Notes under the pieces: model-generated | Databases searched by the model: none | Told to the model about the DNA's origin: nothing | Seen by the model: only the letters and a program-made list of their open reading frames with translations | Translations under genes and position numbers: made by a program | Shown here: piece after piece, positions 2,783 to 24,395 of the stretch | Numbering within the stretch: the first letter of the stretch is position 1 | How the letters are laid out: each line of letters opens with the position of its first letter | From: Actinoallomurus soli | Lineage (GTDB): Bacteria; Actinomycetota; Actinomycetes; Streptosporangiales; Streptosporangiaceae | Assembly: GCF_024055715.1 (NCBI RefSeq) | Contig: NZ_JAMXMV010000001.1 | Span: 62,001-126,000 of the forward strand | DNA length: 64,000 bases | Direction of reading: 5' to 3'

Positions 2783-3478
2783 ATGAACGCTCCTGAGAGG
2801 TGGCGGCGTCCCGCTCCGCGCCGGGCGGACCCCGGCACGGAGATCTTCCCTGGCGACGCCGCGCCCGATCAGGACGCCGACCCGGCCGGGAGACCGGGGC
2901 GGCGCGGGCGGAGGCGTGGCCGGGACCGTTCTCCCGAGGGACCGACGCCGGGCAGCCCGGCGGCGCAGGGCCCGCCCGCCGATCCGGAGGCGGTGGCGCG
3001 CGAGATCTGCCTGCGGCAGCTGTCGTTCTCGCCGAAGACCCGTGCCCAGCTCGCCGACGCGCTGCGCCGCAAGGGCGTGCCCGACGACGTCGCCGAGCGG
3101 GTGCTGAGCCGCTACTCCGAGGTCGGGCTGATCGACGACGCGGCGTTCGCCCGCGCCTGGGTCGAGTCCCGCCACGCCGGCCGGGGGCTGGCCCGCCGGG
3201 CGCTCGCCGCCGAGCTGCGGCGGCGCGGCGTCGCCGACGAGACGGTCAGTGAGGCCGTGGAGGAGCTGGGTCCGGAGCAGGAGGAGGCGGCGGCCCGCGA
3301 GCTGGTCGCCCGCAGGCTGGCCGGCACCCGCGGCCTGGACCCGGTCAAGCGCACCCGGCGGCTGATGGGCATGCTCGCCCGTAAGGGTTACTCCGGCGGC
3401 CTCGCCTACCGCGTCGTCCGCGAAACGCTGGAGGCCGAAGGCGCCGACGAGCTCCCGGACCTGTCGTTCGACGACTGA
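2783..3478 (+). CDS. recX: Regulatory protein RecX
   Basis: RecX binds RecA filaments and limits their activity. The 231-residue protein has a disordered Arg/Pro/Gly-rich N-terminus of about 70 residues, then the helical RecX core: EICLRQLSFSPKTRAQL, ADALRRKGVPDDVAERVL and GLIDDAAFARAWVESR, and the usual (A/V)YRVVRE third repeat near the end. It starts at ATG 2783 after a GAGGGG site. Its C-terminal codons (GADELPDLSFDD) recur in diverged form at 4067-4112, which marks a recombination joint downstream. It is co-directional with recA and probably co-transcribed. Confidence 0.95.
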   Translation: MNAPERWRRPAPRRADPGTEIFPGDAAPDQDADPAGRPGRRGRRRGRDRSPEGPTPGSPAAQGPPADPEAVAREICLRQLSFSPKTRAQLADALRRKGVPDDVAERVLSRYSEVGLIDDAAFARAWVESRHAGRGLARRALAAELRRRGVADETVSEAVEELGPEQEEAAARELVARRLAGTRGLDPVKRTRRLMGMLARKGYSGGLAYRVVRETLEAEGADELPDLSFDD

Positions 3479-3520
3479 GCCCGACCTCCTTGGCAGTACC
3501 TCTGATCCCGGATATGAGAA

Positions 3521-3583
3521 GCGCCCCTTGAAGCAGCATGGTCAGAATCGGCGAGATCCTGACCATGCTGCTTCAAGGGGCGC
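3521..3583. terminator. Long hairpin after recX (29-bp stem), probable bidirectional terminator
   Basis: The arms at 3521-3545 and 3559-3583 are perfect 25-base reverse complements (GCGCCCCTTGAAGCAGCATG... on the left). After one A-C mismatch the stem continues for three more pairs around a five-base loop GGCGA. It lies between the convergent recX and secreted-peptide genes, where a two-way terminator is expected. There is no T tract. The length and near-perfect symmetry also fit a mobile palindromic repeat. Confidence 0.7.
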
Positions 3584-3628
3584 ATTCCTCAGGTGCGTGA
3601 TGGCATCACCGCAGCCCGAAGAGCGCGA

Positions 3629-3883
3629 TCACCACGAGTTCAGCGAATACGAGCCGTTGGGGTTCTGGGAGCAGGAGAATCCGTAAAGCAGACCCTGCTG
3701 GGCATAGACGTCCCCGGCGTAGACGCAGGCTGTGTACGTCGCCCATGAGGTCGTGCGGACCCCTGTGGCGGTCGGGGGAGTGGTGTCCGCGAATGCGGAT
3801 GCCGTGCTGGAGAGGGAGAGCACCGCCCCTGCGGCGGCGACGCTGGCGGCGATACCCAATTTGCCGAGAATGCCATGTTGCAT
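3629..3883 (-). CDS. Small secreted protein with two cysteines
   Basis: The 84-residue product starts at the ATG at 3883, preceded by GAGGAGG four bases upstream. A signal peptide is clear: MQHGILGKLGIAASVAAAGA, more hydrophobic residues, then a probable cleavage after ASAFA. The mature chain is only about 50 residues, with two Cys in CVYAGDVYAQQG...GFSC that could form one disulfide, and ends in Trp. A decayed relative lies at 8771-8880 and shares the spacing CVYAG-VYAQ-G---GFSC. I do not recognise the family. Local DNA is less GC-rich than its neighbours, and the gene sits between recX and a foreign-looking recX tail, suggesting transfer. Function unknown. Confidence 0.8.
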   Translation of the reverse strand: MQHGILGKLGIAASVAAAGAVLSLSSTASAFADTTPPTATGVRTTSWATYTACVYAGDVYAQQGLLYGFSCSQNPNGSYSLNSW

Positions 3884-4066
3884 CGATCCTCCTCGTCTCA
3901 ACGTTCGACCAATTCACTCGGAAGAGTCGGCCGGGTTGACGGATTCGTCCGAACCTAGTGACGAACGTGCTGTCAACTATGGCGTTTCCGTAGGCAGTCG
4001 CGATATCGGCAATAGTGCCTACTTCACCCTCATCGGCGGTCCTGGCCGCTGATATGTTGAGGACAC

Positions 4067-4112
4067 AAGGCGCCGAGCACGTTCCGGAACTGTCGTTCGA
4101 CGACTGAGCCCG
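4067..4112 (+). pseudogene. Diverged copy of the recX 3-prime end
   Basis: This stretch aligns without gaps to recX 3438-3483, and the last 23 bases are identical. In frame it reads QGAEHVPELSFDD-stop, against EGADELPDLSFDD-stop in recX, with conservative changes (D/E, L/V). That is the pattern of a recX tail from a related strain rather than a fresh duplication. No upstream recX sequence accompanies it. It ends four bases before the VOC gene stop. Confidence 0.75.
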
Positions 4113-4116
4113 GCTT

Positions 4117-22524: not shown

Positions 22525-22587
22525 GGCGAACTCCACGTGGACCGCCTCACGGCTCGCTGACCGTATTGCCGTTTCCGGCCTCGGGCC
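22525..22587 (+). pseudogene. Diverged copy of the dapF 3-prime end
   Basis: This aligns with dapF 21509-21570 over about 60 bases, including CCGCCTCACGGC and the stop region. In frame it encodes IGELHVDRLTAR-stop, against [16 protein letters not shown] in dapF. The substitutions are conservative, so it is a tail from a related allele, not a recent copy. No further dapF sequence is attached. Confidence 0.75.
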
Positions 22588-22601
22588 GATTTGATGCGGG
22601 C

Positions 22602-22745
22602 ATGCCCGAGAGCGTCACCTCACCCGTGTTCACCCTGTCCTACGTTCCGTCGGTCGAGGACGTCGCGGAGCTCCGGGCGCCGTACGAGGTCGAAGTGTTC
22701 GAGGAGGGCCTCACCAGCCGGACCGACGGACTCGCCAGGCAGCCA
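22602..22745 (+). pseudogene. Remnant of a small membrane-protein gene (YcxB-like?)
   Basis: An ATG opens a readable stretch, MPESVTSPVFTLSYVPSVED followed by VAELRA, then APYEVEVFEEGLTSRTDG, after which codon use degrades. The two blocks resemble the N-terminal and post-membrane segments of YcxB-like proteins with the central membrane hairpin deleted. The frame runs into the 3-prime end of the opposing glycohydrolase gene. The family assignment is tentative. Confidence 0.35.
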
Positions 22746-22806
22746 TCTGGCGTTCCACCCCGGCCTCGATCCGCGTGGCCGATGGCGTACCGGCCGTGGG
22801 GCCGGG

Positions 22807-23820
22807 TCAGTGGAGGCCCTGGTAGACCCAGTTCGGGAGGATCTCGACAAGGTGCAGCCACTCGCCGGGGGCGATCGCGGGTCCGGCGCGTCCCATGTCA
22901 CCGCGTCCGTTGCGCGCGGCGACGACGCCGCCCGTGATCGCGCACGTGGTGTCGACGTCGCCGAGGCCCTCGGCGGTCGTCCAGAGCGCGTCGGTGAGGC
23001 TGCCGAGATGGTGGGCCGCGCACCACAGCGCGAACGGCACCGTGTCGTCGGCGCGGATCCGCCGCCCGTTGCCGAGGATGTCGGCGGCCTTCCAGGCGGG
23101 GGTGTCGTCCGGCAGGTCGGCGGCGCGCAGGATCCCGTCGCGGGTCGGCCCGGCGGGCGTATGCGCCGCGACCGCTCGAAGCAGGTCGGCGCCCCAGAGC
23201 ACGCCCTCACGCGCGCCCGGGCTCTGCCGCCACCGGGCCTCGTGGTCCGGCCGGCCGGCCACGGCGAGGGCCGCCGCGACGGCCACCGCGACGGCGCCCG
23301 CGATGCCTTCAGGGTGAGCATGGGTGACGTGCGCGGACCGCCTCGCCTGCTCGACGGTGGTCTCGAGGTCCGGGCCGAACCAGGCGCCCAGGGGAGCGGC
23401 CCTCATCGCCGCGCCGTTGCCGAGGCTGCCCTGTCCGTCGAACAGCGCCCGCGCCGCCGTGCGCCACGCACCCGGGTCCGCGCCGAGCAGCGGCAGCAGG
23501 TCGTGCATGCCCGCGCCGTATCCCCGGCCCGGATCGGCGGCGTAGGCGTCGGCGAACGCGCGGGCCAGTTCCTCCTCGACGATCTCCCCGTGCCGCAGGA
23601 GCACGCCGAGGATGCCGAGGGCCATCGCGGTGTCGTCGGTCCAGCGCCACACCTGGCCGGGCCCGAAGCCCTGACCGGGGCCCGGCACGTCGGGGAGGCG
23701 GCGCGCGGCGATCTCGCGGCGGGCCTCGGCCGCGGATCGGGAGAACCACCGCCGGCCGAACGCGTCCCCCAGGGACAGCCCCATGACGCTGTCGAGAACC
23801 GCATTCCGATCAACGATCAT
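22807..23820 (-). CDS. ADP-ribosylglycohydrolase family protein
   Basis: The 337-residue, all-helical protein belongs to the family that removes ADP-ribose from proteins (DraG/ARH-like). Metal-binding motifs are present: GLSLGDAFG near the start, WRWTDDTAM (the T-D-D metal ligands), and GLGDVDTTCAITGGVVAA near the C-terminus (the paired D-x-D/T ligands). No ADP-ribosyltransferase is nearby, so the target is unknown. ATG 23820 gives MIVDRNAVLDSVMGLSLGDA, the usual opening. It sits between two groups of gene remnants. Confidence 0.9.
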   Translation of the reverse strand: MIVDRNAVLDSVMGLSLGDAFGRRWFSRSAAEARREIAARRLPDVPGPGQGFGPGQVWRWTDDTAMALGILGVLLRHGEIVEEELARAFADAYAADPGRGYGAGMHDLLPLLGADPGAWRTAARALFDGQGSLGNGAAMRAAPLGAWFGPDLETTVEQARRSAHVTHAHPEGIAGAVAVAVAAALAVAGRPDHEARWRQSPGAREGVLWGADLLRAVAAHTPAGPTRDGILRAADLPDDTPAWKAADILGNGRRIRADDTVPFALWCAAHHLGSLTDALWTTAEGLGDVDTTCAITGGVVAARNGRGDMGRAGPAIAPGEWLHLVEILPNWVYQGLH

Positions 23821-23840
23821 TGCCGCACTCTGCCACGTAT

Positions 23841-24216
23841 TCAGCCGGTCAGGGCGCGAAGTCCTTCGCGGAGGGTGGCGGCGTCGACGTCCTCCAGGAT
23901 GAGCAGCTGGATCACGAAGCCGGGTACGAGGCAGAAGAGGGTGGCGCCGACGGCACGGGGGTCGGCGTCGGCGGGCAGGCGGCCCACATCGCGCATTCGT
24001 TCAGCGAGCTTGATCCACCAGGTGCGGGTGTCGGTGAACAGGCCGCGGACGGTCGGTCCGAGTGCCGGGTTGTACATCGCCTCCACCCACCCGGCGGGAG
24101 CGAGCCGGAGAGGGCCGTCGCTCCCCAGCAGGGACTCGACGCGCTCGGCGAACCGGCCGATCACGTCCTCCAGCGGGGGGAGGGTGTCCTCGTTGAGCAC
24201 TTCTTCCAGCACACAC
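23841..24216 (-). pseudogene. C-terminal part of a TetR-family regulator
   Basis: On the minus strand from about 24216 the reading is CVLEEVLNEDTLPPLEDVIG, then RFAERVESLL, AGWVEAMYNPALGPTVRGLF, and finally GLRALTG-stop. This is an intact TetR ligand-binding half. No helix-turn-helix or start lies upstream: the sequence changes at 24207-24216 into the end of a membrane-protein gene on the other strand. It is a 5-prime truncation. Confidence 0.65.
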
Positions 24217-24395
24217 TGCTGCGCTCGGTCGCGTTCTTCGACGGCGCGCGGGCGGGCGGCCCGCTTATCGTCCTGGTCGTGTGGGCCGTGACCGGGCTCC
24301 TGCTCCTCGGCGTGGGCGGTCTGCGGGATCGGCATGCCGGCTCCCGTGAGGCCGCCGCGCGGGATGCTTCCACGCTGGTGGACGCCGACAGGTGA
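24207..24395 (+). pseudogene. C-terminal end of a YhgE/DUF3533-type membrane protein
   Basis: The plus strand reads QHTLLRSVAFFDGARAGG, then PLIVLVVWAVTGLLLLGVGG (one membrane helix) and a hydrophilic tail ending TLVDADR-stop. This is typical of the last helix of YhgE-like or DUF3533 membrane proteins, which are often divergent from a TetR regulator. The rest of the gene is missing. Confidence 0.55.

Follow-up and report, generated by a model that had tools for sequence, protein, structure and literature searches.

In a 64,000-nucleotide stretch of the Actinoallomurus soli genome (here called the window; C11:62001-126000 of 9.42 Mb), three blocks of accessory DNA appear to have been inserted next to native genes, each lying between two diverged copies of a neighboring segment. 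The duplicated segments are the 3′ end of recX, the 3′ end of dapF, and a segment termed X, which consists of the start of a VOC/glyoxalase-family gene together with the intergenic DNA that separates it from an AraC-type regulator gene. The enclosed blocks carry, respectively, a small peptide gene (secP), a gene for a secreted-looking protein (sec21643), and an SDR-SDR-Xre operon. Judged from the sequences, the three joints fit one architecture, a block between two copies of its target segment. We tentatively read them as the scars of separate insertions with target duplication, made by end-joining capture at a staggered break, and we regard this reading as plausible, if somewhat short of probable.

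Segment pairs around the putative inserted blocks

When the window was compared with itself by BLAST, the four top-scoring pairs were the same four that a preliminary description of this DNA had named (Table 1). All four are imperfect direct repeats of 46 to 122 bp with 79 to 87% identity, and they score 109, 97, 73, and 57 bits, whereas across 60 first-order Markov shuffles of positions 2701 to 25500 no direct repeat within 6 kb scored above 36.5 bits. The preliminary description had placed a diverged partial copy of a neighboring gene at each of at least four block joints; the four repeats stand, far above the shuffled sequences, but the secP-like tail after the AraC gene does not appear to be a block edge. 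The target duplications are unequal in length (about 50 bp for recX, 60 to 77 bp for dapF, and 100 to 122 bp for X), and the homologous stretches end rather sharply both in the window and in Actinoallomurus spadix. In agreement with the earlier statement that mobile-element ends are not visible, no terminal inverted repeats were found at the tips of five blocks; the best inverted match at their edges was 11 bp and lay away from the tips. No integrase or transposase was present among the block genes tested against Pfam, although no search of the window aimed at either enzyme was made, and ARAGORN found no tRNA genes in the window. Beyond each pair, neither X nor the recX tail had a further own-genome copy among the best candidates scored.

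Only for X could the insertion be polarized, through uninterrupted relatives with a single copy of the target. The congener sample comprised seven genomes, including A. spadix (G004; 87% in the best segment of a recX search) and A. purpureus (G007), the closest relatives in that search. The alignment to A. spadix passes through recX, the secP unit, the second recX tail, and the VOC gene, then steps back 101 bp and continues into the AraC gene. This 101-bp overlap, set against a VOC-AraC gap of 3157 bp in the window, marks A. spadix as the empty site, with one X where the window has two. Because the VOC-AraC pair is also adjacent, with a single X, at another locus in four other congeners (G002, G003, G005, and G006), a single copy is probably the ancestral state. 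In the window, the VOC and AraC genes are both complete, one on each side of the block. The SDR-SDR-Xre operon has matches at 1e-100 in 39 of 297 genomes, the own genome included, and in one of the 39 nearly the whole operon is matched at 78%. At nine loci of its nearest relatives, neither VOC nor AraC was found in the flanks (up to about 1.5 kb), and the sole X-like match there was a weak one of 31 bp and 28 bits. The AraC gene of the window also contains an array of 21-bp repeats, encoding 7-residue units, at about 8483 to 8643; the A. spadix gene is without it.

The recX and dapF joints would represent older events, since the secP block with its second recX tail and the sec21643 gene with its second dapF tail are both common to the window and A. 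spadix. Six other congeners gave no match to the secP block between recX and rny, where A. purpureus retains an AraC remnant. Neither secP nor sec21643 could be assigned to a Pfam or NCBIfam family. The sec21643 cargo does not itself seem to bring the duplication, given that the gene is not bracketed by a repeat pair at any of 18 other loci of its family, 3 of which have short pairs of another kind. Whether secP is a mobile unit was also considered. No repeat pair surrounds the secP relative on contig C32 of the own genome, but in A. spadix another secP unit (C12, L141) lies near a 36-bp repeat. This repeat was rejected as a target duplication because the 36-bp copies are an internal piece of a methyltransferase-like gene that is complete on one side. 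Three further features were noted near these joints. A near-perfect 29-bp hairpin stands beside secP (3521 to 3583), and by eye its pairing is largely kept, with other bases, in two A. spadix copies. In A. purpureus (G007:C50, within L112), the gap after dapF contains a small protein gene of a different kind, whose start resembles a secretion signal, and has no second dapF tail. In the window, a block with an ADP-ribosylglycohydrolase gene (22633 to 23840) is not found at that place in A. spadix and ends without a clean repeat.

The remaining repeat belongs to a 365-bp insert at the 3′ end of the AraC gene, whose old end could be located by eye beyond the insert from A. spadix and A. purpureus. 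The truncated secP-family gene within it has one partial own-genome match (C32:24922-25017) among the best candidates scored and is about equally close to the window's secP gene (87/111) and the C32 relative (79/103). It appears to have arrived in a small insertion of its own, as part of a paralogous gene.

Table 1. Repeat pairs and annotated features at the joints (window positions)
Feature	Position	Strand or orientation	Basis or remark
X pair	4515-4635/7773-7894	direct	122 bp, 80%, E 4e-24 (self-BLAST)
secP-fragment pair	3615-3728/8756-8870	direct	115 bp, 79%, E 3e-20 (self-BLAST)
dapF-tail pair	21509-21568/22525-22584	direct	60 bp, 87%, E 3e-13 (self-BLAST)
recX-tail pair	3438-3483/4067-4112	direct	46 bp, 87%, E 2e-8 (self-BLAST)
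recX 3′ end and a few bases, native copy	3438-3488	+	same gene end in A. spadix
Putative inserted secP unit: hairpin, peptide gene, upstream region	3489-4066	-	same arrangement in A. spadix
secP gene, 84-residue peptide with signal-like start	3629-3883	-	no family assigned
Second recX-tail copy, ending at the VOC stop codon	4067-4117	+	also in A. spadix, more decayed
VOC/glyoxalase-family gene	4117-4563	-	Pfam PF00903
X1, VOC start and VOC-AraC intergenic segment, VOC-side copy	4515-4635		self-match, A. spadix alignment
Putative inserted SDR-SDR-Xre block	4636-7772		site empty in A. spadix; other genera have a related operon
SDR genes of the block	4853-5632, 5734-6576	-	Pfam
Xre/MmyB-like regulator of the block	6769-7677	+	Pfam
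X2, AraC-side second copy of X, with decayed VOC start	7773-7894		self-match
AraC-type regulator	7923-8843	+	Pfam; reads into secP fragment, stop at 8841-8843
365-bp insert at AraC 3′ end	8745-9109		absent from A. spadix and A. purpureus
Truncated secP-family gene (3′ part) in the 365-bp insert	8756-8870		self-match
dapF 3′ end and downstream bases, native copy	21509-21568	+	60 bp matched; 77-bp span in A. spadix
Putative inserted block with one secreted-looking protein gene (sec21643, 21643-22428)	21569-22524	-	family at several other loci in genus
Second dapF-tail copy	22525-22584	+	also in A. spadix

Relatedness of the paired copies

The preliminary description took the copies at the joints to be foreign. 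Those of recX, dapF, and VOC/AraC do not look so, and their closest counterparts are in the lineage of the window and A. spadix. The second recX-tail copy agrees with the native one at 40/46 positions, A. spadix at 39/45, and A. purpureus at 36/46, compared with 25 to 29 of 43 to 46 positions in five other congeners. For the second dapF copy, the corresponding values are 52/60, 46/60, and 42/60, with 29 to 34 of 51 to 60 positions in the five other congeners. X1 and X2 share 72/91 positions with each other and 78/91 and 71/91, respectively, with A. spadix; X2 shares 57 to 65 of 89 to 91 positions with eight other X copies. The differences between X1 and X2 (19/91 positions) are similar to the near-neutral synonymous level. 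Synonymous p-distances to A. spadix are ordinary for the AraC (0.198) and VOC (0.196) genes when set beside those of recX (0.205), miaA (0.176), a TetR gene (0.163), dapF (0.159), and rny (0.158). Together, the identity counts and synonymous distances suggest that the copies differ about as much as near-neutral sequence would have done since around the split from A. spadix.

A foreign AraC allele had been considered because the high divergence of this gene suggested a donor. The candidate was rejected on the ordinary synonymous distance, although the nonsynonymous distance to A. spadix is raised (pN 0.094). In the best trees, X1 groups with X2, and the second recX copies of the window and A. 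spadix are paired, which is what a single old event should produce; none of the branches has good support, however. A source as close as the lineage itself would be compatible with both the distances and the trees.

Proposed end-joining capture and its alternatives

In the proposed capture, the two strands would have been opened some 50 to 120 bp apart, fill-in on both sides of the break would have duplicated the short target stretch, and a captured linear fragment would have been sealed in through end joining by Ku and LigD. Identical at the start, the copies would later have drifted to 79 to 87% identity. Ku is encoded in all eight genomes of the genus that were compared, and LigD Prim-Pol occurs at three places in the own genome, one of them 1.5 kb from Ku. 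The unequal duplication lengths, the lack of inverted repeats at the block tips, and the different targets argue against both a transposase and a site-specific integrase: the terminal inverted repeats and fixed short target duplication of a transposon were not found, nor were the integrase (among the Pfam-tested block genes) and the constant target of an integrase islet. In plants, patch-mediated break repair with tandem duplication yields insertions between two target copies of variable length. That system is eukaryotic, unlike the present one, and the likeness lies in an insert between target copies of variable length. A limited literature search with few terms found no paper on bacterial insertions at staggered breaks with target duplication.

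Fragment capture during end joining is described for Streptomyces ambofaciens, where, according to the sections on break repair in PMC5869714, sites of break healing had taken up DNA of 30 bp to 18.8 kb in five instances. According to the same sections, mutagenic repair was nearly gone without KuA and gone without LigC/LigD, the scars showed microhomology or a fill-in of 1 to 4 nt, and the inserts came from the same genome. The two cases are alike in that a high-GC actinomycete with Ku and LigD captures fragments at the join, and they differ in that 50 to 120 bp of target are duplicated here (compared with PMC5869714, as far as those sections go).

Several points weigh against end-joining capture. 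A fill-in of 50 to 120 nt is far longer than the 1 to 4 nt given in those sections of PMC5869714, whose inserts, moreover, are of same-genome origin. The supporting events number only three, and among 13 clean large indels relative to A. spadix (defined below) a duplication of 20 to 200 bp was found in one, that of X (101 bp). At the recX and dapF joints, the outgroups have one gene end, but a clear empty joint was found in no relative. The inserted genes do not share a clock with their flanks: the secP block is 62 to 80% identical to that of A. spadix, compared with 85 to 95% for recX, and the synonymous p-distance of sec21643 to A. spadix is 0.065, compared with 0.158 to 0.205 for other genes; either block may have undergone exchange after arrival. 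Trees of the recX tail and of X, built on 46 and 94 columns, have no starred branch. In the approximately unbiased test on X, neither a grouping of X2 with A. spadix (p-AU 0.49) nor one of X1 with A. spadix (0.18) was rejected.

The preliminary description favored homology-facilitated illegitimate recombination, in which incoming linear DNA would be held by a homologous anchor (e.g., recX-secP of a relative) and its other end joined without homology in the last bases of the resident gene, displacing the original end. This route would yield the recX and dapF arrangements naturally, and the relevant passages of two studies propose it for orphan gene ends in type VI secretion system (T6SS) loci of Vibrio (PMC5361080) and for dimorphic loci in Escherichia coli (PMC2884548). 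The raised pN of the AraC gene would suit it, as would the compatibility of the distances and trees with a donor as close as the lineage itself. However, the ordinary synonymous divergence of AraC argues against a distant donor allele, and X would require a donor with the block beside VOC or AraC, an arrangement seen at none of the nine loci of SDR-block relatives (flanks of up to about 1.5 kb). We therefore consider this route unlikely as the leading mechanism. The T6SS immunity arrays, as presented in those passages of PMC5361080, resemble the window in that a series of insertions made without an integrase can be traced by displaced 3′ parts of genes; in the arrays, a conserved anchor can be recognized upstream of the newly added module, whereas here no donor arrangement was found and the copies are most similar to the recipient lineage. 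The preliminary description had also pointed to competence genes, and a ComEC gene is indeed present (C11:116534-117358, window positions 54534 to 55358), but its presence says little, since the same family occurs in 10 of 14 control genomes.

Unlikely to nearly the same degree would be a larger tandem duplication followed by loss of most of one copy, the accessory genes having come before or between. Local duplications and gene decay do occur in this genome, as in a rearranged gene fragment near C11:1110768 and a 596-bp pair with 99% identity in neighboring chitinase-like genes (C11:182059/183782) that is a single copy in A. spadix. Yet the homology edges are fairly sharp in both species, and the X block is flanked by complete VOC and AraC genes, as expected from insertion at a single site. 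We think it very improbable that the blocks are relics of integrative elements that used the recX and dapF 3′ ends as attachment sites and have lost their integrase. The recX and dapF copies are indeed gene 3′ ends of 46 to 77 bp, a size range seen for attachment sites in gene ends. Against such relics stand the absence of an integrase among the block genes tested, the small size of the two blocks (0.6 and 1.0 kb, one gene each), the 5′/intergenic nature of X, and the lack of a flanking pair at the 18 other sec21643 loci. Unrelated dispersed repeats or chance matches have the least to commend them and can be nearly set aside: two other orphan pairs in the genome (C11:1093660 and C33:275987) do belong to a dispersed intergenic repeat, but the best own-genome candidates scored held no further copy of X or the recX tail, and the shuffles never exceeded 36.5 bits. 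Variable DNA flanked by direct repeats is also described in the relevant part of PMC2884548, where 10 to 18% of the segments that vary between strains of E. coli, Staphylococcus aureus, and Streptococcus pyogenes have direct repeats at their base, ascribed to illegitimate recombination or slippage, and 66 to 94% of these are shorter than 30 bp. The present repeats differ from those in being 46 to 122 bp long and diverged, with one case polarized as an insertion.

Occurrence beyond the window and implications

The contig of the window was compared with A. spadix over about 210 kb, with 45 junctions. Clean large indels, in which one side had 300 bp or more and the other no more than 30 bp, numbered 13; of 18 junctions outside this set, 5 leave 31 to 120 bp and 13 are replacement-like. 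The recX and dapF events are common to both species and so cannot show in this list. Apart from X, one duplication of at least 20 bp was found among the 13, a 594-bp pair formed by the cellulose-binding and fibronectin module of two neighboring chitinase-like genes; the module is single in A. spadix, probably through a deletion there. Three of the 13 are A. spadix inserts with homing-endonuclease domains. These inserts (G004:C71; L168:13559-14872, L165:4570-5652, and L162:18185-19153) are long and open and are absent from the genome of the window; one lies inside recA and matches Pfam Intein_splicing and LAGLIDADG_3, and the other two match LAGLIDADG_3.

A repeat scan covered 1.6 of the 9.42 Mb (C11:1-1200000 and C33:1-400000) for pairs of at least 35 bp and at least 55 bits within 6 kb. 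It returned 51 direct pairs and 1 inverted pair of up to 250 bp; a paralogy filter classed 34 of these 52 short pairs as paralogous and left 17 direct and 1 inverted as orphan. The dapF pair, misfiled as paralogous, was restored by hand to give 18 orphan direct pairs, 4 of them the window's own. Among the other 14, 2 belong to the dispersed intergenic repeat mentioned above, 3 to one gene-fragment locus (C11:1107796 to 1112890), and 6 to three repeat-rich places (two at C11:320148, three at C33:290852, and one at C33:330839), which leaves 3 without explanation (C11:359892, C11:405942, and C11:869728). Control regions, scanned without the paralogy filter, gave the following short pairs: for other genera (1.41 Mb), 24 direct and 10 inverted; for congeners (0.30 Mb), 14 direct and none inverted; for A. 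spadix (0.30 Mb), 1 direct and none inverted; and for C11 (its first 0.40 Mb), 9 direct and none inverted. Because these regions are unmatched, enrichment is claimed in neither direction. The preliminary description had proposed a genome-wide pattern, to be refuted by a lack of enrichment. With 1 of 13 clean indels showing the duplication and most orphan pairs outside the window explained otherwise, that refuting outcome was largely obtained within the 1.6 Mb, short of a matched control. It had asked for variation in the presence of the enclosed genes between strains; such variation was seen between species, and its interpretation as a whole is partly supported.

Two further observations concern noncoding DNA. 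The dispersed repeat is palindrome-like, intergenic, and about 60 bp long (C11:1097142-1097209, C33:275987-276043, and C33:277930-277987); it occurs at some ten or more places in the own genome and at several in A. spadix. On C33, A. spadix lacks the roughly 2 kb that precede the second copy of the repeat, and a 75% relative of this stretch lies elsewhere in its genome. In the window, a noncoding segment upstream of the RNase Y gene (9271 to 9400) is strongly conserved in the seven congeners compared; no Rfam match at the gathering threshold was found in positions 1 to 26000, which include it.

These joints bear on how small gene blocks enter bacterial chromosomes without a transposon or integrase. 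It is a doubtful but conceivable generalization that, in actinomycetes with Ku and LigD, end-joining capture at widely staggered breaks is a way of acquiring single genes or small operons and leaves 50 to 120 bp of the target duplicated; three cases within 20 kb of one chromosome are a lead and not a rule. If true, this would be a bacterial counterpart of the patch-mediated insertions of plants, a way of acquiring accessory genes that depends on neither mobile elements nor homology. If the scars are indeed end-joining captures, they would offer a readable signature with a measurable duplication length.

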